Below, one piece after another: positions 51,541 through 63,900 of a stretch of DNA of 64,000 nt. The position numbers and the translations under genes were made by a program. The DNA comes from Pedobacter cryoconitis (GTDB lineage Bacteria > Bacteroidota > Bacteroidia > Sphingobacteriales > Sphingobacteriaceae). The notes beneath the pieces were generated by a model, which was given only the letters and a program-made list of their open reading frames with translations, was not told where the DNA came from and searched no databases. How positions within the stretch are numbered: position 1 is the stretch's first letter; every line of letters starts with the position of its first letter. Where the stretch lies: the NCBI RefSeq assembly GCF_001590605.1, contig NZ_CP014504.1:5146001-5210000 (forward strand), written 5' to 3'.

Positions 51541-53145
51541 TTATTTCTTTTTCGCATTGAAAGGCTTTTGCTGTTTAGGTTTAAATTGAGGTTTTCCGAC
51601 AGAGCGGATCTCAGAAGCACCCAGCATGGTCATCGCACAGCGGAAACCAATGTCAGCAGTAGATTCATCTTGTGGTAAGAAGCGTCTGGTTGCAGGGTTT
51701 AACCATAAAGCCTGGTCATCCCATGAGCCTCCTTTGTAAACTCTTGATTTATTATTTACCAGTGTAATTTCACCATATAATTTGCTTTCCTCATCGCGGA
51801 AACCTCTTTGGTCAGCATAAGAATTCTTTAGCGTATCTGCTTTAGCGGTAGCGGCTTGTTTCTCTGCCCAGGTTTGTTTTTTACCAGATACAGCAGCAGT
51901 CATAATAGGTCTGTTGTAAGCGTCTTTCTCCAATCTTCCTGTTAACGGATCAGCAACTTTTTTGTCCTGGTAATAATTTCCTCTGTATGGGTTTAAAGCA
52001 TCTGCATCTGCAAAAGTATTAGAGCGGTAAACATCGGCTACCCACTCATTCACGTTTCCAGCCATATTGTATAAACCGAAATCATTAGGTACGTAAGAAC
52101 GAACAGGGACCGTAATACTTCCTTTATCATTCAGTGTACCGCCAACACCCATGTAGTCACCTTTAGTTCTTTTAAAGTTGGCCAGGATCAAGCCACGGGT
52201 CTTGTTCTTTGCAGAACTGATACCCAGACCATCCCATGGATAAATCTTGTTGCTGGAGATATTTTCGTAATTCGTATTTCCGATTAAGCCTAAAGCTGCA
52301 TATTCCCACTCAGCTTCTGTAGGCAAGCGGTATGGTTGTTTGATAATACCGTCTTCTAACCTTACATTTCTGGTTGCACCACCTTTTTGACCTTTAGCAT
52401 TTGCATTGGCTGCAGTAGCCGCAGGACTAAAATCTTTCATGGCTTTAGTTCCCTTATCGTCATACTGCCCATTTAAATAAATGTCTGTATTGAAAGGGCC
52501 GGTCGGCTTAGCCGCAGTAGCTGCAGCATTCGTTTTTTTGCCATTTTTACCAGTACCATTCAGATCCTTGTAGCTGGTCATATAGTTTTGCTCTCTTAAA
52601 AGAGATTCATTGACGATATCCGTTCTCCATTCACAATATCTTTGTGCCTGTTCCCAGCTTACACCTACCACAGGATAGTCCTGATAAGCAGGGTGTCTTA
52701 AATAATTGTCAACGTAAGGTTCATTGTAGGAAAGAGGCCTGCGCCAAACCAGCGTATCAGGTAACTCGTTGTAATAATATTCGTAGTTAGTTGGGTCAAC
52801 TTTTCTGATCCAGTTGAGGTATTCTAACCAGTTTGTATTGGAAACCTCGGTTTCATCCATGTAAAAGGAAGATACTGTTGTTTCTCTTTTGTGGTTATAA
52901 TCTTTAAGCTCCTGTCCTGGAACATTGGTCGCGCTTCCGCTCATCACAAATACGCCACCTTCAATCTCAACCAAACCCGGACCAGGTCCGCGTTTGAATT
53001 TGTTATTTACCTGAAACCCTCCGTTTTCTGGTCTATTGTATGCTAATCCTGTCTTTTCGGAGGTTGCACTTTTTTTCGATGTGCACGAAATTATTGAGGA
53101 AACAGACAATAAAAAAGCAAATGAATATAGGTATGTTTTTTCCAT
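51541..53145 (-). CDS. gldJ: Gliding motility/type IX secretion lipoprotein GldJ (SUMF1 domain)
   Basis: A 534-residue lipoprotein. The signal has lipobox SSIISC, and the mature part has the SUMF1/formylglycine-generating-enzyme fold: GPGPGLVEIEGGVFVMSGSA, PVVGVSWEQAQRYCEWR, RLPTEAEWEYAALG, LYNMAGNVNEWVADVYR and GGSWDDQALWLNPATRRFLP. An Asn/Ala/Lys-rich insert splits the domain (about 200-270), and the basic tail follows GFRCAMTMLG. GldJ is needed for gliding and T9SS stability in Flavobacterium. I chose the ATG at 53145, since a longer frame from 53226 adds a second hydrophobic stretch before the lipoprotein signal. It is divergent from porV. Confidence 0.88.
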   Translation of the reverse strand: MEKTYLYSFAFLLSVSSIISCTSKKSATSEKTGLAYNRPENGGFQVNNKFKRGPGPGLVEIEGGVFVMSGSATNVPGQELKDYNHKRETTVSSFYMDETEVSNTNWLEYLNWIRKVDPTNYEYYYNELPDTLVWRRPLSYNEPYVDNYLRHPAYQDYPVVGVSWEQAQRYCEWRTDIVNESLLREQNYMTSYKDLNGTGKNGKKTNAAATAAKPTGPFNTDIYLNGQYDDKGTKAMKDFSPAATAANANAKGQKGGATRNVRLEDGIIKQPYRLPTEAEWEYAALGLIGNTNYENISSNKIYPWDGLGISSAKNKTRGLILANFKRTKGDYMGVGGTLNDKGSITVPVRSYVPNDFGLYNMAGNVNEWVADVYRSNTFADADALNPYRGNYYQDKKVADPLTGRLEKDAYNRPIMTAAVSGKKQTWAEKQAATAKADTLKNSYADQRGFRDEESKLYGEITLVNNKSRVYKGGSWDDQALWLNPATRRFLPQDESTADIGFRCAMTMLGASEIRSVGKPQFKPKQQKPFNAKKK

Positions 53146-53296
53146 AGTTGCGTATTGAGCTATTCTAACTGTTAAAATTACACAAAAAAAGATCGATGAA
53201 ACAAAATAATTGAATAATATCATCATAGATTAACATCTTGCAATATATATCCGCACAAATGTTAAGTCTTAACTTAAATAAATTGCTTATTTAAAT

Positions 53297-53304
53297 TATA
53301 TTTG
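53297..53304 (+). promoter_or_regulatory. -7-like box before porV
   Basis: TATATTTG fits TAnnTTTG about 60 bases before the porV start. No TTTG lies at the usual distance upstream, so this is a partial match only. Confidence 0.4.
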
Positions 53305-53363
53305 AAAAAGAGAGTCAACACTGACCCATACCTATCTATGAACCTGAACAAGAAAATCAATTA

Positions 53364-54548
53364 ATGAGGATAAAAAAACTGAAGTGCTCTTCAAGATTTC
53401 TATTGATTTGCTTCTTTTTTGCTGTAGAAACTTTTTCTCTGCAGGCCCAGACACCAGAAACACAAAGTAATGGCAGCAGGTTTAACAGTTTGAAAACGGC
53501 AGTCCCGTTTTTACTGATCACGCCCGATGCGAGAGTTGGAGGGATGGGAGAAGCCGGTGTGGCGATCTCGCCTGATGCGAATTCTGGTAGCATTAACCCT
53601 TCTAAACTTGCTTTTCTGGAAGAGAAATATGGATTTTCAGCTTCTTATAGCCCATGGTTGAGAAGTATTGTTTCTGATATTAATTTAGGCTATCTGAGTG
53701 GGTTCTATAAATTGGATGACAGAACAACATTAGCTGCTTCAATGCGTTATTTTTCCTTGGGTAAAATACAACTGACTGATGCGAATCAGCAAGAGCTGGG
53801 TACTTCCAGCCCAAGTGAGTTAGCTATTGATGCAACTTTTGCGCGTCGTTTTGGAGATTCTTTCTCTTTGGGAACCTCTGTCAGATATATTTATTCAAAC
53901 CTGGCAGCAGGAAACTTTGGCGTCGGACAGCAATCAAAAGCGGGTAAATCTCTTGCGGTGGATGTTTCCGCTTATTTCAAAAAGCCAACCTATATGCTTG
54001 GACATGATGCGATTGTATCCGCTGGTGCGAATATTTCAAATATCGGTACAAAAATGAGTTATGTAGATGGCGGTCAGAGTGCTTTCCTGCCTACAAACCT
54101 GAAAATCGGTGGAGCTGCGACGCTGATCCTTGATGATTACAATGAAATAACGCTTGCACTGGATTTCAATAAACTTTTAGTGCCTACCCAGCCTATTTAT
54201 AACCAGGACGGAAGTATACAATCGGGCAGAGATCCTGACCGTTCAGTTCCTTCTGGTATCTTTGGTTCGTTCAATGACGCGCCAGGAGGTTTCAATGAAG
54301 AGGTAAAGGAGATCAATATTGCTTCAGGACTGGAATACTGGTACAATAAGAAATTTGCACTCAGAACCGGCTATTTCTATGAAAGTCCACAAAAAGGGGA
54401 CAGGAGATATTTTACTTTAGGTACAGGCTTTAAATATGAAAGTTTTAATTTCGATGTATCTTACCTGGTTGCAAGTGCCAGAAAAAGCCCGTTAGCGAAT
54501 ACTTTGAGGTTTACCTTATTGTTTAATTTAGGGAATACCAGTAAATAA
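53364..54548 (+). CDS. porV: Type IX secretion system outer membrane protein PorV
   Basis: A 394-residue FadL-like beta-barrel protein. A signal peptide (cleavage near LQAQ) is followed by TAVPFLLITPDARVGGMGEAGVAISPDANSG in part, the hallmark opening of PorV, and repeated beta strands to a C-terminal FTLLFNLGNTSK. PorV shuttles T9SS substrates from the translocon to the attachment complex. It is divergent from gldJ with only 218 bases between starts, and precedes ispF by 11 bases. Confidence 0.93.
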   Translation: MRIKKLKCSSRFLLICFFFAVETFSLQAQTPETQSNGSRFNSLKTAVPFLLITPDARVGGMGEAGVAISPDANSGSINPSKLAFLEEKYGFSASYSPWLRSIVSDINLGYLSGFYKLDDRTTLAASMRYFSLGKIQLTDANQQELGTSSPSELAIDATFARRFGDSFSLGTSVRYIYSNLAAGNFGVGQQSKAGKSLAVDVSAYFKKPTYMLGHDAIVSAGANISNIGTKMSYVDGGQSAFLPTNLKIGGAATLILDDYNEITLALDFNKLLVPTQPIYNQDGSIQSGRDPDRSVPSGIFGSFNDAPGGFNEEVKEINIASGLEYWYNKKFALRTGYFYESPQKGDRRYFTLGTGFKYESFNFDVSYLVASARKSPLANTLRFTLLFNLGNTSK

Positions 54549-54559
54549 ATATAAATAAA

Positions 54560-55036
54560 ATGAAGATTAAAGTAGGATTTGGATTTGACGTACACCAGTT
54601 AAAAGGTGGTCATCCATTCGTGGTTGGGGGAGTAAATCTTGAACACCATCAGGGGGCATTTGGACATTCAGATGCCGATGTTTTATTACATGCAATTTGT
54701 GATGCTTTATTAGGGGCTGCAAACCTTCGCGATATTGGCTTCCATTTTAAAAATACAGATCCAAGATGGAAAGGAATCAGCAGTGTGATTCTTTTACAGG
54801 AAACGGTAAAACTGCTGACTGAGAAAGGATGGAGCATTGGAAATATTGATGCGATGCTTTGTCTGGAGGCACCGAAAATCAATCCGCACATTCCACAGAT
54901 GCAGCAGAATATTGCTGACGCGATCGGTATGTCCACAGAAGATATTTCCATTAAAGCGACGACCAATGAAACGATGGGTTTTATCGGTCGGGAAGAGGGT
55001 GTTGTTGCCTATGCAGTTTGCCTGATTGAAAAATAA
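54560..55036 (+). CDS. ispF: 2-C-methyl-D-erythritol 2,4-cyclodiphosphate synthase
   Basis: A 158-residue MEP-pathway enzyme making the cyclodiphosphate intermediate of isoprenoid synthesis. The metal site FGFDVHQL (Asp10, His12) and LEHHQGAFGHSDADVLLHAI in part, with the conserved HSDADV motif, are present; DISIKATTNETMGFIGREEG is the C-terminal signature. It lies 11 bases after porV and may share its transcript. Confidence 0.97.
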   Translation: MKIKVGFGFDVHQLKGGHPFVVGGVNLEHHQGAFGHSDADVLLHAICDALLGAANLRDIGFHFKNTDPRWKGISSVILLQETVKLLTEKGWSIGNIDAMLCLEAPKINPHIPQMQQNIADAIGMSTEDISIKATTNETMGFIGREEGVVAYAVCLIEK

Positions 55037-55367: not shown

Positions 55368-56240
55368 TTAATCTTCCAGGTAACCAAACTTACCTTCGTT
55401 ATAATCGCTTATTGCTAATTTTATTTCTGCCTGATTGTTCATTAAGAATGGCCCGTATTGTGCAATTGGTTCATAGATAGGTTCACCACTTAAAATCAGA
55501 ATGATACTATTTTCTGAAGCCTTAGCATGGATTTCCTCTCCATCATTCTTAAAATATACAAATTCATTTCCGGCTGCTTTTTCTCCATTGATGGTCAGGT
55601 TTCCCTCTATGATCAATATACCAGTATTAAAATCAGCTGGAAAATGGAATACAGCTTCTCCGCCAGCATTTAAATGCACATTGTATACATTCATTTTGCT
55701 GAAAGTAGTTGCAGCTCCTATAACGTCCATATACTGGCCTGCGATAACCTCTACTTTTCCTGCATCTTCTGGTAAAAGGTATCTTCCGATAGTATCATTT
55801 TGAATCTCCTGATACTTAGGTTTACTCATTTTATCCTTAGCAGGCAAGTTTACCCACAGCTGAACCATCTGGAAAAGCCCGCCTTTCCTGCTGAATTCCT
55901 TTTCATGATATTCTTTATGGAGAATACCGCTTGCAGCTGTCATCCACTGTACATCACCAGGGTAAATAATCCCACTGTTTCCGGCGCTGTCATGATGCGC
56001 AATTGCCCCATGGTAAGCAATCGTCACTGTTTCAAAACCACGGTGTGGATGCACTCCAACGCCGCGTAACTGATTCGTTGGCGGAAGCTCCATTTTATCA
56101 TTAAAATCGAGCATATAGAAAGGGCTCATTTTAATTTTATAGCCTCCCGGGAAAAAGTTACTCACTTTAAACCCATCACCGACCATATGTGGTGTTGGTG
56201 CAGCTAAAACAGCCGAAACAGATTTTATAGTGGTTTCCAT
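55368..56240 (-). CDS. Pirin-family bicupin protein
   Basis: A 290-residue pirin. The N-terminal cupin holds the metal-ligand pattern GVGVHPHRGFETVTIAYHG and later GILHKEYHEK (His, His, His, Glu); the C-terminal pirin domain ends with PIAQYGPFLMNN and an acidic tail. Some pirins have quercetinase activity, others are regulatory; which applies is unknown. It is last in a run with yceI and a Crp/Fnr gene, 49 bases after yceI. Confidence 0.93.
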   Translation of the reverse strand: METTIKSVSAVLAAPTPHMVGDGFKVSNFFPGGYKIKMSPFYMLDFNDKMELPPTNQLRGVGVHPHRGFETVTIAYHGAIAHHDSAGNSGIIYPGDVQWMTAASGILHKEYHEKEFSRKGGLFQMVQLWVNLPAKDKMSKPKYQEIQNDTIGRYLLPEDAGKVEVIAGQYMDVIGAATTFSKMNVYNVHLNAGGEAVFHFPADFNTGILIIEGNLTINGEKAAGNEFVYFKNDGEEIHAKASENSIILILSGEPIYEPIAQYGPFLMNNQAEIKLAISDYNEGKFGYLED

Positions 56241-56289
56241 AAGAAATCTTTTTGTTAGAAGTAATCAACCAGGTTAAAGAGTAAACTGA

Positions 56290-56820
56290 CTAGGCTTGTT
56301 TTGCGAATTGCAGTTCACCTAAGATTTTAACTTCTTCACCTAACATGACACCACCAGTTTCTAATGCAGCATTGTAAGTCAGACCGAAATCAGTTCTGTT
56401 TATTTTTCCTTTGATAGTAAAACCAGCTTTAGTATTACCCCATGGGTCTTGTGCAGTTCCACCAAATTCAACAGCTAAAGTAACTGGTTTAGTTACATCT
56501 TTGATAGTCAGGTCACCTTTCAATTGATAATCGTCACCATCTTTAGTGAATGAAGTCGAAACAAATGATACAGAAGGGAAATCTGCAGCATTAAAGAAAT
56601 CACCACCTATTAAATGACTATCTCTGTCTTTATTACCTGTATCGATAGAATTTACACCTGCTTTGAAAGAAACAACTGAATGTTCGAAATCGTCATTATC
56701 GGTATCTAATTCTGCAGAAAACTCATTGAAACTACCAGTTACGGTAGAGATCATCAAATGTTTTACTTTAAATTGAAGTTCACTGTGTGTTGGATCTAAT
56801 ACCCATTTAGTAGTTGCCAT
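56290..56820 (-). CDS. YceI-family lipid-binding protein
   Basis: A 176-residue lipocalin-like protein: TKWVLDPTHSELQFKVKHLM opening, VSFKAGVNSIDTGNKDRDSH, and a FGLTYNAALETGGVMLGEEV ending, all YceI hallmarks. There is no signal peptide from this ATG, so it is predicted cytosolic, unlike E. coli YceI. It binds isoprenoid-type lipids in characterised members. It lies between the Crp/Fnr and pirin genes. Confidence 0.94.
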   Translation of the reverse strand: MATTKWVLDPTHSELQFKVKHLMISTVTGSFNEFSAELDTDNDDFEHSVVSFKAGVNSIDTGNKDRDSHLIGGDFFNAADFPSVSFVSTSFTKDGDDYQLKGDLTIKDVTKPVTLAVEFGGTAQDPWGNTKAGFTIKGKINRTDFGLTYNAALETGGVMLGEEVKILGELQFAKQA

Positions 56821-56906
56821 AATCTTTAGTTTTAATATTGGTTTTTATTATAACACAAATCTAAAGCTAATGTTGAGCGTGGGTGTTGATGTATGATAAG
56901 AAATAG

Positions 56907-57494
56907 TTAAACTTTGAAATGTTTGTGTGCGAGGTCTTTACGTACTCTGCTTAAAGATTCTGGTGTAATACCAAGGTAAGAGGCAATCATCCATTGTGGT
57001 ACACGGAGCGTCAGGTTAGGATATAATTTGATAAAATCAAGATATCTTTCTTCAGCAGTTGCACTTAATAACATATTGATCCTTTTTTGCATAAAGCGGA
57101 TCGAATTGTTCAGCATGGTATAGTTAAGGTCAGCAAAACAAGGGATGTTTTTTGCTGCATCATCAAAATAGTTTTTAGGAATCTGCAATACTGTAGTACG
57201 TTCTACAGCATCAATATAGAAATCGGAAGGTTCATTGAAAAGGCTGTTCCTTTCAGACATCCACCAGTTTTCAGGAGCAAACTGAATAATGTTGACCTTT
57301 GCTTTGCTGTCAATGGAATAGCAGCGTAACAGTCCTTCAGTCACAAAATAACCCTTGGAATTGATTTCACCGGGCGCAACAAGCACCTGGTTTTTTTCAA
57401 TTACTTTGACTTTAATGTCTCTTGAAATCAGTTCAAACTGCTCGTCAGTAACTGTAATCCTTTTTTGCAGATAATCTTTAAGCTGTTGGAACAT
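56907..57494 (-). CDS. Crp/Fnr-family transcriptional regulator
   Basis: A 195-residue regulator. The N-terminal cyclic-nucleotide-binding-like domain includes VIEKNQVLVAPGEINSKGYF and GLLRCYSIDSKAKVNIIQF; the C-terminal HTH is QWMIASYLGITPESLSRVRK. It lacks the iron-sulfur cysteines of Fnr. In Bacteroidota such regulators often neighbour yceI and pirin genes; control of these two is likely but inferred. It is upstream of yceI by 86 bases. Confidence 0.93.
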   Translation of the reverse strand: MFQQLKDYLQKRITVTDEQFELISRDIKVKVIEKNQVLVAPGEINSKGYFVTEGLLRCYSIDSKAKVNIIQFAPENWWMSERNSLFNEPSDFYIDAVERTTVLQIPKNYFDDAAKNIPCFADLNYTMLNNSIRFMQKRINMLLSATAEERYLDFIKLYPNLTLRVPQWMIASYLGITPESLSRVRKDLAHKHFKV

Positions 57495-57511: not shown

Positions 57512-57670
57512 CTATTTATTTTTAGTTTCAATATTAGAAAAATCTACACCACATTTGCAATTAGATGCGCATCCACCACTTTTTGGGGATACGGCGCGAT
57601 AAATGATACGGCCTATATAGCATAAGGCTGCAACAAATAAAAGTCCTGCTAAAATAGCTTGAATATCCAT
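57512..57670 (-). CDS. Small Cys-rich membrane protein (FeoB-associated type)
   Basis: A 52-residue protein. One N-terminal membrane helix (QAILAGLLFVAALCYIGRII) is followed by a short cytosolic tail with the cysteine motif GGCASNCKCGVDF. This is the FeoB-associated Cys-rich layout, usually linked to ferrous iron uptake. No feoA or feoB is in the window, so the link is by similarity only. It lies 17 bases before the Crp/Fnr gene on the same strand. Confidence 0.75.
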   Translation of the reverse strand: MDIQAILAGLLFVAALCYIGRIIYRAVSPKSGGCASNCKCGVDFSNIETKNK

Positions 57671-57720: not shown

Positions 57721-58914
57721 TTACTGGGCCATTAGGCCTACAGTGCCGCCTACCCAGTCAAAATCGGCATTATACCGTACCCCGATCATCTTCCCTCTGC
57801 TTAAACGGGCCAGGTTAATACACAATTGAGGCTCTTCTCCATCCGGCCAGATATAGAGTAATCTGAGCTCTGCTTTAACCAGGCCATCTGGCGATTGAAC
57901 AACAGGTTCATAATTCACTTTTCTTTGTAAAATCCAGTTCTCAGGATCAGTTATTGCGTCAATATCAGCCTTGCTAACTTCTATAATCACACCCATTCCT
58001 GCAAATGAAAACAAAGGTTTGAGTACGTAATTCTCCAAATCGGAAGGTATTACTTCAATAGTATTTAAAAACCGGGTTTCAGGTACAAATTCATTCTTTA
58101 AAAAGGGCATGGTGAATTTGCTGATCCGGTAAAACCAGTTAGGATGTGTGATCCATTCGATGTCCAGTTCATCTCTCGGGTCAAAACTGAGCTTAAATAA
58201 TTCCTGTTGTGTACTTACTTCGTCAAAAATCAGGCGGTTATAAATCCTTCTTAACCTGATTTTCTTGCCCTGCTCTATATAAAATAGCTGATTGCCTTCT
58301 TTAAAAATATCCGTTAAGCTTAGAATCCGTATCCCTAAATGTTTGGCGGTGACAAAGAAATCAATCGCTGTTTTCTGATTTAGAGCGTCGATATCCATTA
58401 AAGCAACTTCTTCGGGGGCAAAAGGGCCTAGTATCACCTTTTTCAATAAAGCGATATAGCTTTGCTGATCTATCCCATGGAAAAAAGGACTGAAATCTGC
58501 GAGTTCATCCAACTCAAAAGTCTCTTTATAAACATCAGCTAAATGTGCCTGAAAACCAAATAAAGAAGGGAATCCCTGCATTTCTATCAGTCTGGGTACT
58601 AAACGGCCCTCTTCATCTTTACAAATGGCAAAATCGAATGCTAAAAAATGAGGATGATCATTTTCATTGGGAACAATCCATTCTTTAGGAATTGCATTGT
58701 CGGTAAGCGCTTTGAAATCAGGTTGTTTGATTAACTTGATGATTTCTTCGCCCGCTTCGATCAGCTGATTTTTTAAATCCTCAGGGATGAATACAGGCGT
58801 TTCGGCAAATCTGATTGTTATTGGGGGATAATCTTCGCCAAGTACACGTAAAAACTGAACGTACTTGTCTTTGGTAAAGTTCCGGTTAAAATATTCCCTA
58901 TAAGTACGGACCAT
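57721..58914 (-). CDS. ATP-grasp-like protein, last gene of the amidoligase operon
   Basis: A 397-residue protein not matching a well-known enzyme. Features that suggest an ATP-grasp fold related to glutathionylspermidine synthase are IEMQGFPSLFGFQ, the glycine loop YVLKPLFSFAGMGVIIEV, the ENWILQRKVNYEPV strand, and AELRLLYIWPDGEEPQL followed by NLARLSRGKMIGVRYN near the C terminus. These would bind ATP and metal to activate a carboxylate. Its ATG lies 1 base after the amidotransferase stop. Substrate unknown; a C-N or C-S bond-forming role is inferred from its neighbours. Confidence 0.7.
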   Translation of the reverse strand: MVRTYREYFNRNFTKDKYVQFLRVLGEDYPPITIRFAETPVFIPEDLKNQLIEAGEEIIKLIKQPDFKALTDNAIPKEWIVPNENDHPHFLAFDFAICKDEEGRLVPRLIEMQGFPSLFGFQAHLADVYKETFELDELADFSPFFHGIDQQSYIALLKKVILGPFAPEEVALMDIDALNQKTAIDFFVTAKHLGIRILSLTDIFKEGNQLFYIEQGKKIRLRRIYNRLIFDEVSTQQELFKLSFDPRDELDIEWITHPNWFYRISKFTMPFLKNEFVPETRFLNTIEVIPSDLENYVLKPLFSFAGMGVIIEVSKADIDAITDPENWILQRKVNYEPVVQSPDGLVKAELRLLYIWPDGEEPQLCINLARLSRGKMIGVRYNADFDWVGGTVGLMAQ

Positions 58915-58915
58915 A

Positions 58916-59746
58916 TCAGGCTTCTTTAAGAAATTGAATAGCTTCAGTTAAAAAATTGGGTAATATAGTTTGCTGAGTTAGCAGAATCCTATCCGGATTA
59001 TCCAGACTTTCCAGCATATCAAGATATTTCTCTTCCCCATGTGCAGCAATAATGGTGTTTTTTTTCTCTTCTTCTAGTAAGTATAATCTCATGCCTTCCG
59101 GATCTGCTTCGGGATGAAACTGGGTTCCGACAAACTCTTTAGAGAAACGAATGGACATAATACAGCGTTCCAGATCAACATGTGGCCGTTCTTTTTCCAG
59201 GGCTAAAACCTCAGCTCCTGTTTCGTTGAAAGTTTCATCTTCTGCATCCACGACCTGCCAGTCTCTGCTATCAATTGTATAAAATGGATTAATGAGGCCG
59301 GCATAGATAATATCATTTTCTCCTTGTGCTGTTAAAGTGACAGGGAAAATCCCGAAAGCGTTAGATTTCCGTTCTGTAACCAGGCCTAAGCCATATTTTC
59401 GGCAGGCCATCTGGAAAGAGTGACAAATTAAGAAAGTATATTTTTTATCTTCGTGTGTTTGATTATAAGCCTCTAAATCATCCAGCAAGGTGAAAAACGA
59501 GTTTTCCCATGCCTGACCTTCGCCCTCATACGGACTGCCCGGGCCACCACTTGAAATATAAATATCAAACTCCGTTCCCGGAATTTCATCTTTTACCCTC
59601 AGATCGAACACTTGAACCGATAAATTCAGCGCATGCTCTTCTTTGTAAGTAGATACAATATTCAGAATACCTCTCAGTCCCTGGTTAGGAAACCCGTTAT
59701 TCATATCTATGACCGCAACTTTAATTTCTTTTAGCTGTTCTGTCAT
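58916..59746 (-). CDS. Class I glutamine amidotransferase-like protein
   Basis: A 276-residue GATase1. The oxyanion strand is YISSGGPGSPYEG, the nucleophile elbow LICHSFQMACRK holds the catalytic Cys (CHSFQ, in place of the common CxGxQ), and the His-Glu pair is GTQFHPEADPEG. It releases ammonia from glutamine or hydrolyses a gamma-glutamyl bond. It overlaps the GCS2 gene by 4 bases (ATGA), so its product probably works with those ligases as ammonia donor or hydrolase; which one is open. Confidence 0.88.
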   Translation of the reverse strand: MTEQLKEIKVAVIDMNNGFPNQGLRGILNIVSTYKEEHALNLSVQVFDLRVKDEIPGTEFDIYISSGGPGSPYEGEGQAWENSFFTLLDDLEAYNQTHEDKKYTFLICHSFQMACRKYGLGLVTERKSNAFGIFPVTLTAQGENDIIYAGLINPFYTIDSRDWQVVDAEDETFNETGAEVLALEKERPHVDLERCIMSIRFSKEFVGTQFHPEADPEGMRLYLLEEEKKNTIIAAHGEEKYLDMLESLDNPDRILLTQQTILPNFLTEAIQFLKEA

Positions 59747-60849
59747 CCGTGTGCCCCGATTAAAGTTTGTGAAGTAATGTAATCTACAACAGATTCAAAG
59801 CTGCCTGTTTGTGAATAAATTGCCAGTTGTCTATCGGCGCCTGTGCCATTTTCAAGGATCTTGTGGATATAATCAAGATCCGCTCTGCATCCGAGTTCAT
59901 CTACAACATCGTCTACAAAATCTAATAGTTCCAGTACAAGATTGCGGCAATTGATCTCCATTTCTTTACCGAAGTCAATTAAGTTCCCATCAATTCCATA
60001 ACGGGCTGCCCGCCATTTATTCTCATTGATCAGCGCTCTTGAATAATTGATAAAACTCATGTTTTGCAGGCGAAGCTTATACAATTTAGCGCAAAGAGCC
60101 TGAAACAAAGCTACAAAAGCCATCGTTTCGTCGATCAGCATTGGACAGTCGCAGATCCTGAACTCAATAGTTTCAAAGAATGGATGTACACGGATATCCC
60201 ACCAGATCTTTTTGGCATTATCAATACTGTTTGTTTTGATCAGTAGCTTAACATAGTTATCATAATCTTCAATGCTATTGAATACATCGGGGATGCCAGT
60301 TCTTGGAAACTTATCAAATATTTTTGTTCTGTATGATTTATACCCGGTGTTTCTGCCTTCCCAAAAAGGTGAATTTGTAGATAAAGCAAATACATGGGGC
60401 AGGAAATAACGGACCTGGTTAGCAATGTGAATGGCCAGCTCCCGCGACTGGAAGCCTACATGAACGTGCAAACCAAAAATCAGGTTAGAGCGTGCAGCCT
60501 CCTGAAGCTCATTGACAATTTCGCTATATCTTGGGTGTTCAGTAATCAGTTGTTTTTCCCAATGTGAAAATGGGTGAGTTCCTGATGCACCAATACGTAA
60601 ACCCTGTTCGCCTGCAAGTACCGATACCGTATGGCGCAACTGTGATATTTCCAGACGTGCTTGTTCAGTATTTTTGCAAATACCAGTTCCAACTTCCACA
60701 ACTGCCTGGTGCATCTCTGCCTTTACCTGGTCTTTATGGATTTTTTGCGCAGCTTCCACTATTTTCTGATCATGAGAGGTTAGCTCACGCGTAACCGGGT
60801 CAATGACCATATATTCTTCTTCTACACCGAGCGTAAATTCATTCATCAT
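59743..60849 (-). CDS. Carboxylate-amine ligase, glutamate-cysteine ligase type 2 (YbdK-like)
   Basis: A 368-residue GCS2 protein. The signature TLGVEEEYMVIDP (metal-binding glutamates) opens it, followed by VEVGTGICKNTEQAR, GASGTHPFSHWEKQ, FGLHVHVGF (active-site histidines), SPFWEGRNTGYKSYR, and a late ENKWRAARYGIDG. YbdK-type enzymes join an amino acid carboxylate to an amine using ATP. A strong Shine-Dalgarno (AGGAGG, 60857-60862) lies 7 bases before the start, and either of two consecutive ATGs could be used. It is third in the operon. Confidence 0.93.
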   Translation of the reverse strand: MMNEFTLGVEEEYMVIDPVTRELTSHDQKIVEAAQKIHKDQVKAEMHQAVVEVGTGICKNTEQARLEISQLRHTVSVLAGEQGLRIGASGTHPFSHWEKQLITEHPRYSEIVNELQEAARSNLIFGLHVHVGFQSRELAIHIANQVRYFLPHVFALSTNSPFWEGRNTGYKSYRTKIFDKFPRTGIPDVFNSIEDYDNYVKLLIKTNSIDNAKKIWWDIRVHPFFETIEFRICDCPMLIDETMAFVALFQALCAKLYKLRLQNMSFINYSRALINENKWRAARYGIDGNLIDFGKEMEINCRNLVLELLDFVDDVVDELGCRADLDYIHKILENGTGADRQLAIYSQTGSFESVVDYITSQTLIGAHG

Positions 60850-60856
60850 CTTGGAA

Positions 60857-60862
60857 CCTCCT
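60857..60862 (-). promoter_or_regulatory. Strong Shine-Dalgarno before the GCS2 ligase gene
   Basis: AGGAGG (minus strand) sits 7 bases upstream of the first ATG. It is one of only two such sites I noticed in the window, so it suggests high translation of this gene. Confidence 0.65.
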
Positions 60863-60870
60863 TATTGAAT

Positions 60871-62085
60871 CTATTTTTTCTTTGCTGCCGCTGTTTTATC
60901 AGTTGCTGTCGTTTTTGCTTTTTTAGCAGGTTCAGTAATTTTTACTGCTGCTTTAGGTTTTGCTGAAGTTTCAGGTTTAGTCTTTACTGAAGTTTCAGGT
61001 TTAATCTTCGCTGAACTCTCCGGTTTAGTTTTTGCTGAAGCCTGAGGCTTGGTCTTCACTGAACTTTCTGCCTTAGGTTTCGCTGGACTTACCGCTTCAG
61101 CCGGAATTGCTTTTGCCGGCTTACCAACACCAGTTAATGGTTTTCCAGCAATAGCAGACTTCAAATATTCGCCCCAAGTTAAGTTATCCTGTCCATCAAT
61201 CTGCGTTTCTGCTCTTTCTATTGCATATTTTGCCGAATATTCTACCACCCAGTCAAAATTTTCCTGACCTACACTTTTAATATCTGCATCAGGTGCGGGG
61301 TTGCAGAAATCAATGGCATAAGGGATTCCATCACGCACTGCAAACTCAACCGTATTAAAATCATAGCCTAAATACTGGTTCAATTTAATCACATAATCAT
61401 GGATCGTCTTGAGCAGCTTTTCATTAGCAGATTTTTCCTCTACAGCATACCTTAAATGCGCAGGATTACGCGGTTCATACTGCATGATACGGACATATTT
61501 TCCTCCAATACAATAACACCTGAAATATTCGTCAAACTCAATTTCTTCCTGCAGCATCATGACGTGCTGATGCGTCTGGCTGTGTTTATCGAAAAATTCT
61601 TCTTTATTATTTAGCTTATAAACTTCTTTCCAGCCGCCACCGTCAAAAGGTTTCATATAAGCCGGAAAACCAGTATATTCAAAAATATTATCCCAGTCAA
61701 AAGGAAAAGCCAGGTTGCTGAAAGAATTTTCATTCGTATCATCCGGTCTGGCATGAGAGGGGATCAGCGCAGTTTTAGGAACAGGGATCCCTAGTTTGAC
61801 AGCCAGTGCATTGTTGAAAAACTTTTCATCGGCACTCCACCAAAAAGGGTTATTAATTACTGCTGTTCCTGTAATTGCTGCATTTTTTAAAGATGCCCTG
61901 TAAAATGGAACATCCTGAGAAATCCGGTCAATGATTACGGCATAATCCAACGGTTCAGCCTGGAATATTTTATCGATATTGACAAATTCCGCCTGGAAAT
62001 CTTTGCCTCCTAATTCATTTACACGTTTCACGAAGGCTTCAGGAAATGATCGTTCCTGTCCGAATAAGATGCCTATTTTCTTCAT
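60871..62085 (-). CDS. ATP-grasp ligase with Lys/Ser/Pro-rich repeat tail
   Basis: A 404-residue protein. Residues 1-310 form an ATP-grasp domain: YMKPFDGGGWKEVYKL (glycine loop, about 143-158), MMLQEEIEFDEYFRCY, and the metal-binding end VEFAVRDGIPYAIDFCNPAP (about 246-265, with Glu, Asp and Asn). The fold resembles RimK or D-Ala-D-Ala ligase types. From about 318 a low-complexity tail follows with five 8-residue repeats of the form S(A/V)K(T/I)KPE(T/S) (342-381), then AKK-rich sequence. The tail is very basic and probably disordered. It lies 21 bases upstream of the GCS2 gene. Confidence 0.87.
   Translation of the reverse strand: MKKIGILFGQERSFPEAFVKRVNELGGKDFQAEFVNIDKIFQAEPLDYAVIIDRISQDVPFYRASLKNAAITGTAVINNPFWWSADEKFFNNALAVKLGIPVPKTALIPSHARPDDTNENSFSNLAFPFDWDNIFEYTGFPAYMKPFDGGGWKEVYKLNNKEEFFDKHSQTHQHVMMLQEEIEFDEYFRCYCIGGKYVRIMQYEPRNPAHLRYAVEEKSANEKLLKTIHDYVIKLNQYLGYDFNTVEFAVRDGIPYAIDFCNPAPDADIKSVGQENFDWVVEYSAKYAIERAETQIDGQDNLTWGEYLKSAIAGKPLTGVGKPAKAIPAEAVSPAKPKAESSVKTKPQASAKTKPESSAKIKPETSVKTKPETSAKPKAAVKITEPAKKAKTTATDKTAAAKKK
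60943..61062 (-). repeat. Five 24-base tandem repeats encoding the basic ATP-grasp tail
   Basis: In-frame repeats of 24 bases encode SVKTKPQA, SAKTKPES, SAKIKPET, SVKTKPET and a degenerate SAKPKAAV. Because the period is a multiple of three, unit gain or loss would keep the frame. Confidence 0.85.
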
Positions 62086-62146
62086 AGATTTTTAAAATTA
62101 GGGAGTTGCTTTTTATACTGTTTTATATTCTTTTTTATCATGTTGT

Positions 62147-62851
62147 TTATATTCTGGCTAAATAATCCGGGAACATTTGTCGCCATATTGGCCAGTCATG
62201 ATCCGCATCAGGTCTGATATCCAGCCAGTGGTTGATGTTTTTCTGATGAAGAATTCCTGATAAACGTTCGTTAAAGGGTTTACAAATATCCCGGTCTGCT
62301 GTGCCCAATATAATATTCATATTCCATAGGTCAGGATCCTGATCACGGGGAAGAAAGTCAACCGGGTTATTATAATAAATATCAATGTTATAATAACCAT
62401 CTGTTTGTGGAGTAATATCAAACGTTCCGCTCATGCTGAACATATGACTCACTAAAGCAGGGTGTTTGAATGCAAAATTCGCCGCATGATAGCCGCCAAA
62501 ACTGCATCCGGCTGCAACTACTTTTTGATAACCGGTTTCGTGGACTGCCATTGGAAAAAGTTCTTCAACCAGCATTTTATCGTACCAGGAATGGTTGTGT
62601 GCACGGCCTGCCGGAGAGATATCTTTATTATACCAACTCAGTGCATCAATACTATCGGGGCAATATATTTTAATTTTTCCTTCCTCGATCAGGTGTTGTA
62701 CTGAAGCAATCAGGCCGAAATCTTTTGTTTCATAATAACGGCCTTTACTTGTAGGGAAAAGCAATACCGGCTGCCCGCTATGGCCATACATCAGGAGTTC
62801 TATATCGCCACATAAATTTGGGCTGTACCATTTCTTATATTCTTCTTTCAC
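62147..62851 (-). CDS. Esterase-family alpha/beta hydrolase
   Basis: A 234-residue protein of the esterase D/enterochelin-esterase-like family. The nucleophile elbow is AAGCSFGGYHAANFAFKH (Ser in GCSFGG), an acidic residue follows in a LGTADRDIC strand, and the histidine is in PDADHDWPIWRQ. No signal peptide. It is the first gene of the amidoligase operon, 61 bases before the ATP-grasp gene, and paralogous in fold to the divergent hydrolase at 63079. Substrate unknown; it could hydrolyse an ester or act as acyltransferase. Confidence 0.88.
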   Translation of the reverse strand: MKEEYKKWYSPNLCGDIELLMYGHSGQPVLLFPTSKGRYYETKDFGLIASVQHLIEEGKIKIYCPDSIDALSWYNKDISPAGRAHNHSWYDKMLVEELFPMAVHETGYQKVVAAGCSFGGYHAANFAFKHPALVSHMFSMSGTFDITPQTDGYYNIDIYYNNPVDFLPRDQDPDLWNMNIILGTADRDICKPFNERLSGILHQKNINHWLDIRPDADHDWPIWRQMFPDYLARI

Positions 62852-63078
62852 GGCTTTCCCTATTAGTATACTGAAGATATGTAAAACTCATTCAAACCCA
62901 AAAGGTTTAATAAATTTATTCTTAATCTCTTATCAATTTATTTAATCTGTATAAGTTTAGATATAAAAAGCATCAACTGATTGGTATTAGCTTGGTTTCT
63001 GTATCGAAAAAATAGATAATTATTTCTGGAGATTGTTAAATTTGCAGGGAATTTGTGAGAAAGGGAATTCGTTGAATT

Positions 63079-63900
63079 ATGTATACTACAAAATCAGTTC
63101 TTGGGTTAACCCCCGTTGTCCGCCAATTAGAGTCCACCCATTTACAGCGTATAGTGGAAATAGAATTATTCTATCCTTCTGGATTGCTGGGAAATGAAAA
63201 GTTGAATTTATTGTTGTTAAACGATGGACAGGATGCTGCAGGACTGAATCTGCAGGAGACTCTAAGCAGTTTATACGAAGATCAGAAAATCGAACCCGTT
63301 GTTGTTGCTGCAATTAAAGCTTCTGAAGACCGGCTTCAGGAATATGGCGTTGCCGGCGCTGTTGATTTTGCCTCAAGGGGCAGCAAGGCTGATGCGTATT
63401 CCAAATTTATCACCCTTGAATTAATGCCTTACCTTGAAAAAGAGATTGGAATGCCTTTTTTGGGCAAACGTGCATTTGTCGGATGTTCATTAGGCGGGTT
63501 AACAGCTTTTGATATTGTCTGGAAAAACGATGCTTTCTTTGACCTGGCCGGAGTTTTTTCTGGTTCTTTCTGGTGGAGAAAAAAAGATCTTAAGGACGGA
63601 TATACGGATGACGACCGGATTATGCACCAGGTAATCAGAGAAACCGAAGGAAAACCTTTGGTGAAATTCTGGTTAATGACCGGAACAGCAGATGAAACCG
63701 CTGACCGTAACCGTAATTTTATCATTGACTCTATTGATGATACAATTGATATTATCAAAGAATTAACTAAAAAAGGATACAAAAGACAAGAAGATATTTT
63801 CTACTATGAAATGGTAGGAGGGAAGCATAACGTAGCCACCTGGTCTAAAGCACTCCCCTCATTTTTATGCTGGGCATTTCCAAGAAAAACGTTTTTGTAA
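63079..63900 (+). CDS. Esterase-family alpha/beta hydrolase, divergent paralogue
   Basis: A 273-residue protein. The nucleophile elbow is RAFVGCSLGGLTAFDIVWKN (Ser in GCSLGG), the acid is near FWLMTGTADETADRNRNFI, and the histidine is in MVGGKHNVATWSKAL. It has no signal peptide and belongs to the same family as the minus-strand esterase. It is divergent, 227 bases from that gene. TAAATTTG at 63037-63044 fits a -7 box, but no TTTG lies at the right distance. The pair probably frames one functional unit with the operon. Confidence 0.88.
   Translation: MYTTKSVLGLTPVVRQLESTHLQRIVEIELFYPSGLLGNEKLNLLLLNDGQDAAGLNLQETLSSLYEDQKIEPVVVAAIKASEDRLQEYGVAGAVDFASRGSKADAYSKFITLELMPYLEKEIGMPFLGKRAFVGCSLGGLTAFDIVWKNDAFFDLAGVFSGSFWWRKKDLKDGYTDDDRIMHQVIRETEGKPLVKFWLMTGTADETADRNRNFIIDSIDDTIDIIKELTKKGYKRQEDIFYYEMVGGKHNVATWSKALPSFLCWAFPRKTFL

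Follow-up and report, generated by a model that had tools for sequence, protein, structure and literature searches.

The ligases YgiC and YjfC, characterised as peptide–spermidine ligases (Pederick et al. 2023, as cited in PMC12568646), have a circularly permuted ATP-grasp fold that is also found in glutathionylspermidine synthetase (GspS) and eukaryotic glutathione synthetase, and the fungal ATP-grasp ligase Cp1B acts with the amide synthetase Cp1D in the biosynthesis of E-64, where an acid, an amino acid and an amine are assembled independently of a non-ribosomal peptide synthetase (NRPS; PMC12568646). Here, we analyse a locus of Pedobacter cryoconitis that combines a protein of this predicted fold with other ligases in a single operon. 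It lies in a stretch of 64,000 nucleotides (assembly GCF_001590605.1, contig NZ_CP014504.1, positions 5,146,001 to 5,210,000 of the forward strand; hereafter the window) and encodes three ligases (A1, GCS2 and A2), a class-I glutamine amidotransferase-like protein (GAT) and two alpha/beta-hydrolases (Est5 and Est6). The locus is an amidoligase operon, a kind already known in general: Iyer et al. (2009) reportedly predicted operons in which ATP-grasp and GCS2 ligases occur together with amidotransferases and hydrolases, possibly this exact combination among them. With moderate confidence, we read it as a stepwise, NRPS-independent route, similar to those of glutathione and glutathionylspermidine, to a small peptide or peptide–amine compound. 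We found no description of this operon in the searchable literature; nor, as far as we could find, does that literature describe the fold of A1 or its altered signature, the co-inheritance of the genes throughout the phylum, or the exchange of A1 and GAT for other enzymes.

A1 matches no Pfam family at E ≤ 1, and hence not PF03738, and no NCBIfam family at E ≤ 0.1, the limits to which the genes of the locus were scored, and its comparison with PDB sequences gave a single chance-level match. Its AlphaFold model (AF2, built from 52 natural homologues) has a mean predicted local distance difference test (pLDDT) score of 93.6, and we compared it with solved structures using Foldseek and VIA-align. 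On this model, A1 folds as a circularly permuted ATP-grasp enzyme like GspS, YgiC, YjfC and eukaryotic glutathione synthetase; the fold assignments of A1 and A2 rest on predicted models. The fold is shared end to end with YgiC, YjfC and GspS (Z 22.7–26.2, 326–348 residues aligned), most closely with YgiC (7uk8, Z 26.2) and YjfC (Z 25.6), and includes whole-length matches to YgiC and E. coli GspS (2io7, Z 24.5) over 344–348 residues. Eukaryotic-type glutathione and homoglutathione synthetases (human 2hgs, Z 24.7; soybean 3kal, Z 24.3) and Cp1B (Z 23.1) follow closely, and the next-best matches are a putative gamma-glutamylcysteine synthetase (3k1t, Z 12.6) and then LysX and other standard ATP-grasp enzymes (Z ≤ 8.4).

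Relatedness to the YgiC group is detectable by profile (hhalign of A1 against two YgiC-type sequences, E 4.4e-6), yet the identity is just 13–14% and the R-x-D...E-x-N signature is altered, with D94, E111 and Q113 of A1 invariant in 52/52 sequences. The gene context differs as well, as the listed neighbours of ygiC are ygiB and ygiD, without the adjacent GCS2, A2 and GAT genes that A1 has. A1 as an ordinary YgiC orthologue was rejected, since the genome of the window has a separate full GSP_synth protein (C1:4765691), which reads R-F-D...E-F-N. A canonical GSP_synth/YgiC-type ligase of this genome, separate from the operon, is found beside small putative lipoprotein open reading frames (ORFs; L226:1468-2601).

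The model of A2 (pLDDT of 89.8 over residues 1–310) identifies it as a RimK/LysX-type ATP-grasp ligase. Its catalytic part reaches Z 21.6 to RimK (5zct) and 20.5–21 to LysX and ArgX, and D-Ala-D-Ala ligase and graspetide ligases, like LysX and ArgX, score almost as high as RimK. A2 differs from these enzymes in scoring only 31.7 bits against the NCBIfam family rimK_fam (TIGR00768), far under the cut-off of 143.4, and in having no carrier-protein or ribosomal-protein gene conserved beside it. Its Lys/Ala/Pro-rich tail ranges from about 4 to 120 residues across relatives (roughly 120 in Dyadobacter, about 4–12 in several lineages), and because its length varies so widely the tail is not essential; for the same reason, we rejected it as a conserved substrate arm. 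The tail is histone-H1-like in composition and present in many lineages. A2 is found by itself in some families, flanked by a metallophosphoesterase-like gene (UDP-2,3-diacylglucosamine hydrolase-like) and a histidine-ammonia-lyase-like gene.

An initial annotation, made from the letters of the window, had called two ATP-grasp proteins, a GCS2 ligase, an amidotransferase and two esterases. Both ATP-grasp calls are upheld by the AlphaFold models and their comparison with the PDB rather than by a family match, and structure, which that annotation had not seen, refines A1 to the glutathione/glutathionylspermidine-synthetase type. The other calls are borne out by family matches. GAT matches PF00117 (41.8 bits, cut-off 22.8), with an intact catalytic triad that is unchanged in 25 diverse sequences, and GCS2 matches PF04107 (205 bits), PRK13515 ‘carboxylate-amine ligase’ (538.6 bits, cut-off 371) and TIGR02050 (303.5 bits, cut-off 176.4) and has relatives of solved structure (1r8g and 1tt4). 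Est5 and Est6 match PF00756 (31.3 bits for a cut-off of 22, and 79.6 bits, respectively), with the catalytic Ser of Est5 conserved in 61/63 sequences and the Ser and His of Est6 in 63/63; described earlier as paralogous, the two are so only weakly, with 31% identity over 67 aa.

The module is conserved across Bacteroidota, beyond the Sphingobacteriaceae, and its neighbourhood is conserved far beyond chance. The order Est6 (divergent)–Est5–A2–GCS2–GAT–A1 is kept in named genomes of Pedobacter, Mucilaginibacter, Rufibacter, Dyadobacter, Chitinophaga and others, and gene clustering of 120 A1-anchored loci, some of them on short contigs, found GAT in 91, GCS2 in 90, A2 in 85 and the esterases in 74, whereas the next commonest neighbours are confined to a close Pedobacter/Mucilaginibacter context. 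The gap between GAT and A1, 1 base in the window, has a median of 56 bases across loci. In several lineages, the operon splits into two blocks, Est–A2–GCS2 and GAT–A1. The genes remain neighbours across Pedobacter and Mucilaginibacter and far outside these two genera, as the initial annotation would have had it, but a six-gene operon describes the Sphingobacteriaceae form and not the general unit, which has two separable sub-modules and in which GCS2 and the esterases are not universal. The nearest named relatives are Pedobacter, and the best 80 of 570 matches in genome contigs all carry Bacteroidota or unassigned titles. Plasmid or viral spread was rejected, as neither A1 nor A2 has a match in plasmids and A2 has no relative in viral contigs. 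An ArgD-like class-III aminotransferase gene lies downstream of A1 in several genomes, and in Chitinophagaceae a 105-aa cupin is encoded directly 3' of A1.

Co-inheritance extends to genomes in which the genes are unlinked. In profile searches of 395 Bacteroidota genomes, which divergent copies can escape, A1 was found in 114, A2 in 134 and both in 110, so that roughly 28% of the sampled genomes have both, though A1 matches no curated family. Seven genomes carry A1 and A2 in the same contig yet 0.17–3.2 Mb apart. A1 occurs without A2 in four genomes, in one of which (G299) the A2–Est5 segment has apparently been deleted and GCS2–GAT–A1 retained. GAT is present in 86 genomes, 84 of which are A2-positive (a single genome, G533, has it without either ATP-grasp protein), and is missing from 42 of the 110 with A1 and A2.

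Where A1 or GAT is missing, other enzymes can stand in its place. Twenty-four genomes have A2 and not A1, and 16 of these carry GAT. In all 11 A2-only loci examined with a close A2, a substitute permuted ATP-grasp protein of roughly 455 aa follows A2, with GAT next to it in ten and Est5 usually upstream. The other eight A2-only genomes all have no GAT, and the six that were read have a more distant A2 (33–43% identity). The best Pfam matches of the substitute are the circularly permuted ATP-grasp families PF14403 and PF04174, below or just at their cut-offs, and hhalign aligns it to A1 with E 0.005 at low probability; judged by sequence, the two are likely, although not proven, to be homologous. 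The substitute is therefore a counterpart to A1 that belongs to the same broad class of folds.

GAT is displaced in turn by an M29 metallopeptidase (PF02073), which lies between GCS2 and A1 in four loci (L167, L169, L177 and L178). M29 occurs in 8/395 genomes, all eight with A1 and A2 and none with GAT, and in these eight it usually occupies the GAT slot; in one genome of family f35 (G445), it is encoded upstream of A1 with 21 bases between them, while the other listed members of that family have GAT. The gene of an Amidohydro_3 enzyme overlaps or directly adjoins that of A1 in families f25 and f28, four genomes of which were tested for GAT without a match; because an Amidohydro_3 of that type also lies beside GAT in Chitinophagaceae, this is a weaker case of replacement than M29. 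As these substitutes for GAT have the hydrolysis of amide-type bonds in common, a hydrolase role for GAT is favoured, which tilts the choice between ammonia supply and bond cleavage that the initial annotation had left open.

We infer the substrates, the order of steps and the role of the hydrolases as follows. The YbdK-type GCS2 would form an amide between an amine and a carboxylate, for which the gamma-carboxyl of glutamate is the likeliest candidate; A2 would add a further amino acid; and A1, like glutathione synthetase, GspS and YgiC, would attach an amine or amino acid as a cap to the carboxylate left free. GAT, or M29 in its place, would be the pathway’s own amidase or gamma-glutamyl hydrolase, serving salvage or editing of the product or a side product rather than mainly donating ammonia, and the alpha/beta-hydrolases would remove an ester or thioester group, perhaps at a late step in making what would be a metabolite. 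The inventory of three amidoligases of separate families, an amidotransferase and two alpha/beta-hydrolases, with no NRPS and no conserved precursor peptide, holds as first annotated: no small ORF in the gaps inside the ligase module is common to more than three loci, which makes a graspetide or other precursor-peptide reading unlikely.

Each of the known systems resembles this proposal in part. GspS likewise couples an amidase-type enzyme to its synthetase, whereas that of A1 is a separate gene. Beside a glutathione-synthetase fold, the operon adds a gamma-glutamyl-type ligase (GCS2), but eukaryotic-type glutathione synthesis has no third ligase such as A2, no GAT and no esterases, and the product of the bacterial operon need not contain cysteine. 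The E-64 pathway, which assembles its product in the way proposed here, is fungal, lacks GCS2, a RimK-type ligase and an amidotransferase, and is distinct in sequence from the operon. Tentatively, the locus could represent a phylum-wide, undescribed Bacteroidota pathway to a gamma-glutamyl peptide–amine conjugate, parallel to glutathionylspermidine and trypanothione, in which A1 would be a new ATP-grasp family and the dedicated amidases would be interchangeable. A conserved, chromosomal, single-copy pathway that is co-inherited and has its missing parts substituted points to a compound of physiological importance more than to a strain-specific antibiotic.

Several observations weigh against the proposed pathway. 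The Arg of R-x-D is replaced in A1 by A, Q, V, T, I or S and the Asn of E-x-N by Gln (52/52), and this altered ATP/Mg signature may mean, going by sequence, that its chemistry differs from that of YgiC and GspS. The co-occurrence of A1 and A2 (Fisher p 7e-68) ignores shared ancestry and is thus descriptive. Neither GAT nor M29 is found in 34 of the 110 genomes with A1 and A2, which means that the pathway does not strictly need either hydrolase. The search for GCS2 was negative in four f5 genomes with A1, A2 and GAT and in one further genome (G357) with A1 and A2; gamma-glutamylation by GCS2 is therefore not obligatory, and in those genomes the first step would proceed by another means or the first substrate would be taken up from outside.

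The main rival explanation is that GAT and A1 form a glutamine-dependent amidotransferase, in which A1 uses ammonia from GAT to turn the end of a peptide, made by GCS2 and A2, into a carboxamide. The tight linkage of the two genes and the intact triad of a class-I amidotransferase fit this, but the slot of GAT can be taken by M29, a family that to our knowledge does not supply ammonia from glutamine, and GAT is dispensed with in the 42 genomes noted above. The characterised relatives of A1, moreover, use free amines rather than channelled ammonia, and we consider this explanation unlikely. Somewhat more doubtful is protein tagging, with the RimK-like A2 extending the C terminus of a protein and A1 and GAT adding and removing a cap in a cycle. 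RimK is the best solved-structure match of A2, and reversible modification typically uses pairs of ligase and hydrolase; however, the neighbourhood has no conserved gene for a candidate protein substrate, and LysX/ArgX, D-Ala-D-Ala ligase and graspetide ligases have nearly equal scores.

Another product that we consider improbable is a glutathione-like thiol serving redox balance and detoxification, the S-acyl adducts of which the esterases would hydrolyse. A1 has the glutathione-synthetase fold, and the two esterases share their Pfam family with S-formylglutathione hydrolases. YbdK, moreover, has gamma-glutamyl:cysteine ligase activity, going by the title of Lehmann 2004 as cited in PMC2588565. 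The genome of the window, however, encodes BshC and so probably makes bacillithiol, and this, together with the lineages that keep A1 and A2 where GCS2 was not found, weakened glutathione replacement as our principal interpretation. Finally, the modules do separate in some lineages, as housekeeping genes on one promoter without a common pathway might, but such incidental linkage is strongly disfavoured and hardly credible, given that A1, A2 and GAT are found together throughout the phylum, linked or not, and that lost parts are apparently replaced functionally.

The source genome is a single contig of 5.95 Mb in which the GCS2 gene is present once. All six ORFs are present exactly as first annotated (Table 1), including the spacing of the five on the minus strand (1 base, a 4-base overlap, 21 bases and 61 bases). 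The Bacteroidetes promoter motif TTTG-N17-23-TAnnTTTG has five matches in the window for five expected, none of them near the operon.

Table 1 Positions in the window of the genes of the locus and of the tail of A2.
Feature	Position	Strand	Basis or remark
A1, ATP-grasp ligase, 397 aa	57721..58914	minus	fold from AlphaFold model; no Pfam/NCBIfam family
GAT, class-I glutamine amidotransferase-like, 276 aa	58916..59746	minus	PF00117; triad C108/H211/E213
GCS2, YbdK-type carboxylate-amine ligase, 368 aa	59743..60849	minus	NCBIfam PRK13515, PF04107
A2, RimK/LysX-like ATP-grasp ligase, 404 aa including low-complexity tail	60871..62085	minus	AF2 model
Lys/Ala/Pro-rich C-terminal tail of A2, residues 311-404	60874..61155	minus	variable in relatives
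Est5, alpha/beta-hydrolase, 234 aa, Ser117 in GxSxG	62147..62851	minus	PF00756
Est6, divergent alpha/beta-hydrolase (enterochelin-esterase/esterase-D type), 273 aa, Ser137 and His250	63079..63900	plus	PF00756

After the operon come genes for a CRP/FNR-like regulator, a YceI-like and a pirin-like protein (55368-57494, minus strand); most Pedobacter loci share this order, and those of Mucilaginibacter do not. An ORF for a 52-aa Cys-rich membrane protein (57512-57670, minus strand) with a weak match to FeoB_associated (PF12669) separates A1 from the CRP-like gene, and its place is kept in 29 relatives. Next to one another at 51541-55036 lie genes for an FGE-sulfatase-domain protein (GldJ/GldK-like), PorV of type IX secretion and IspF (YgbB).

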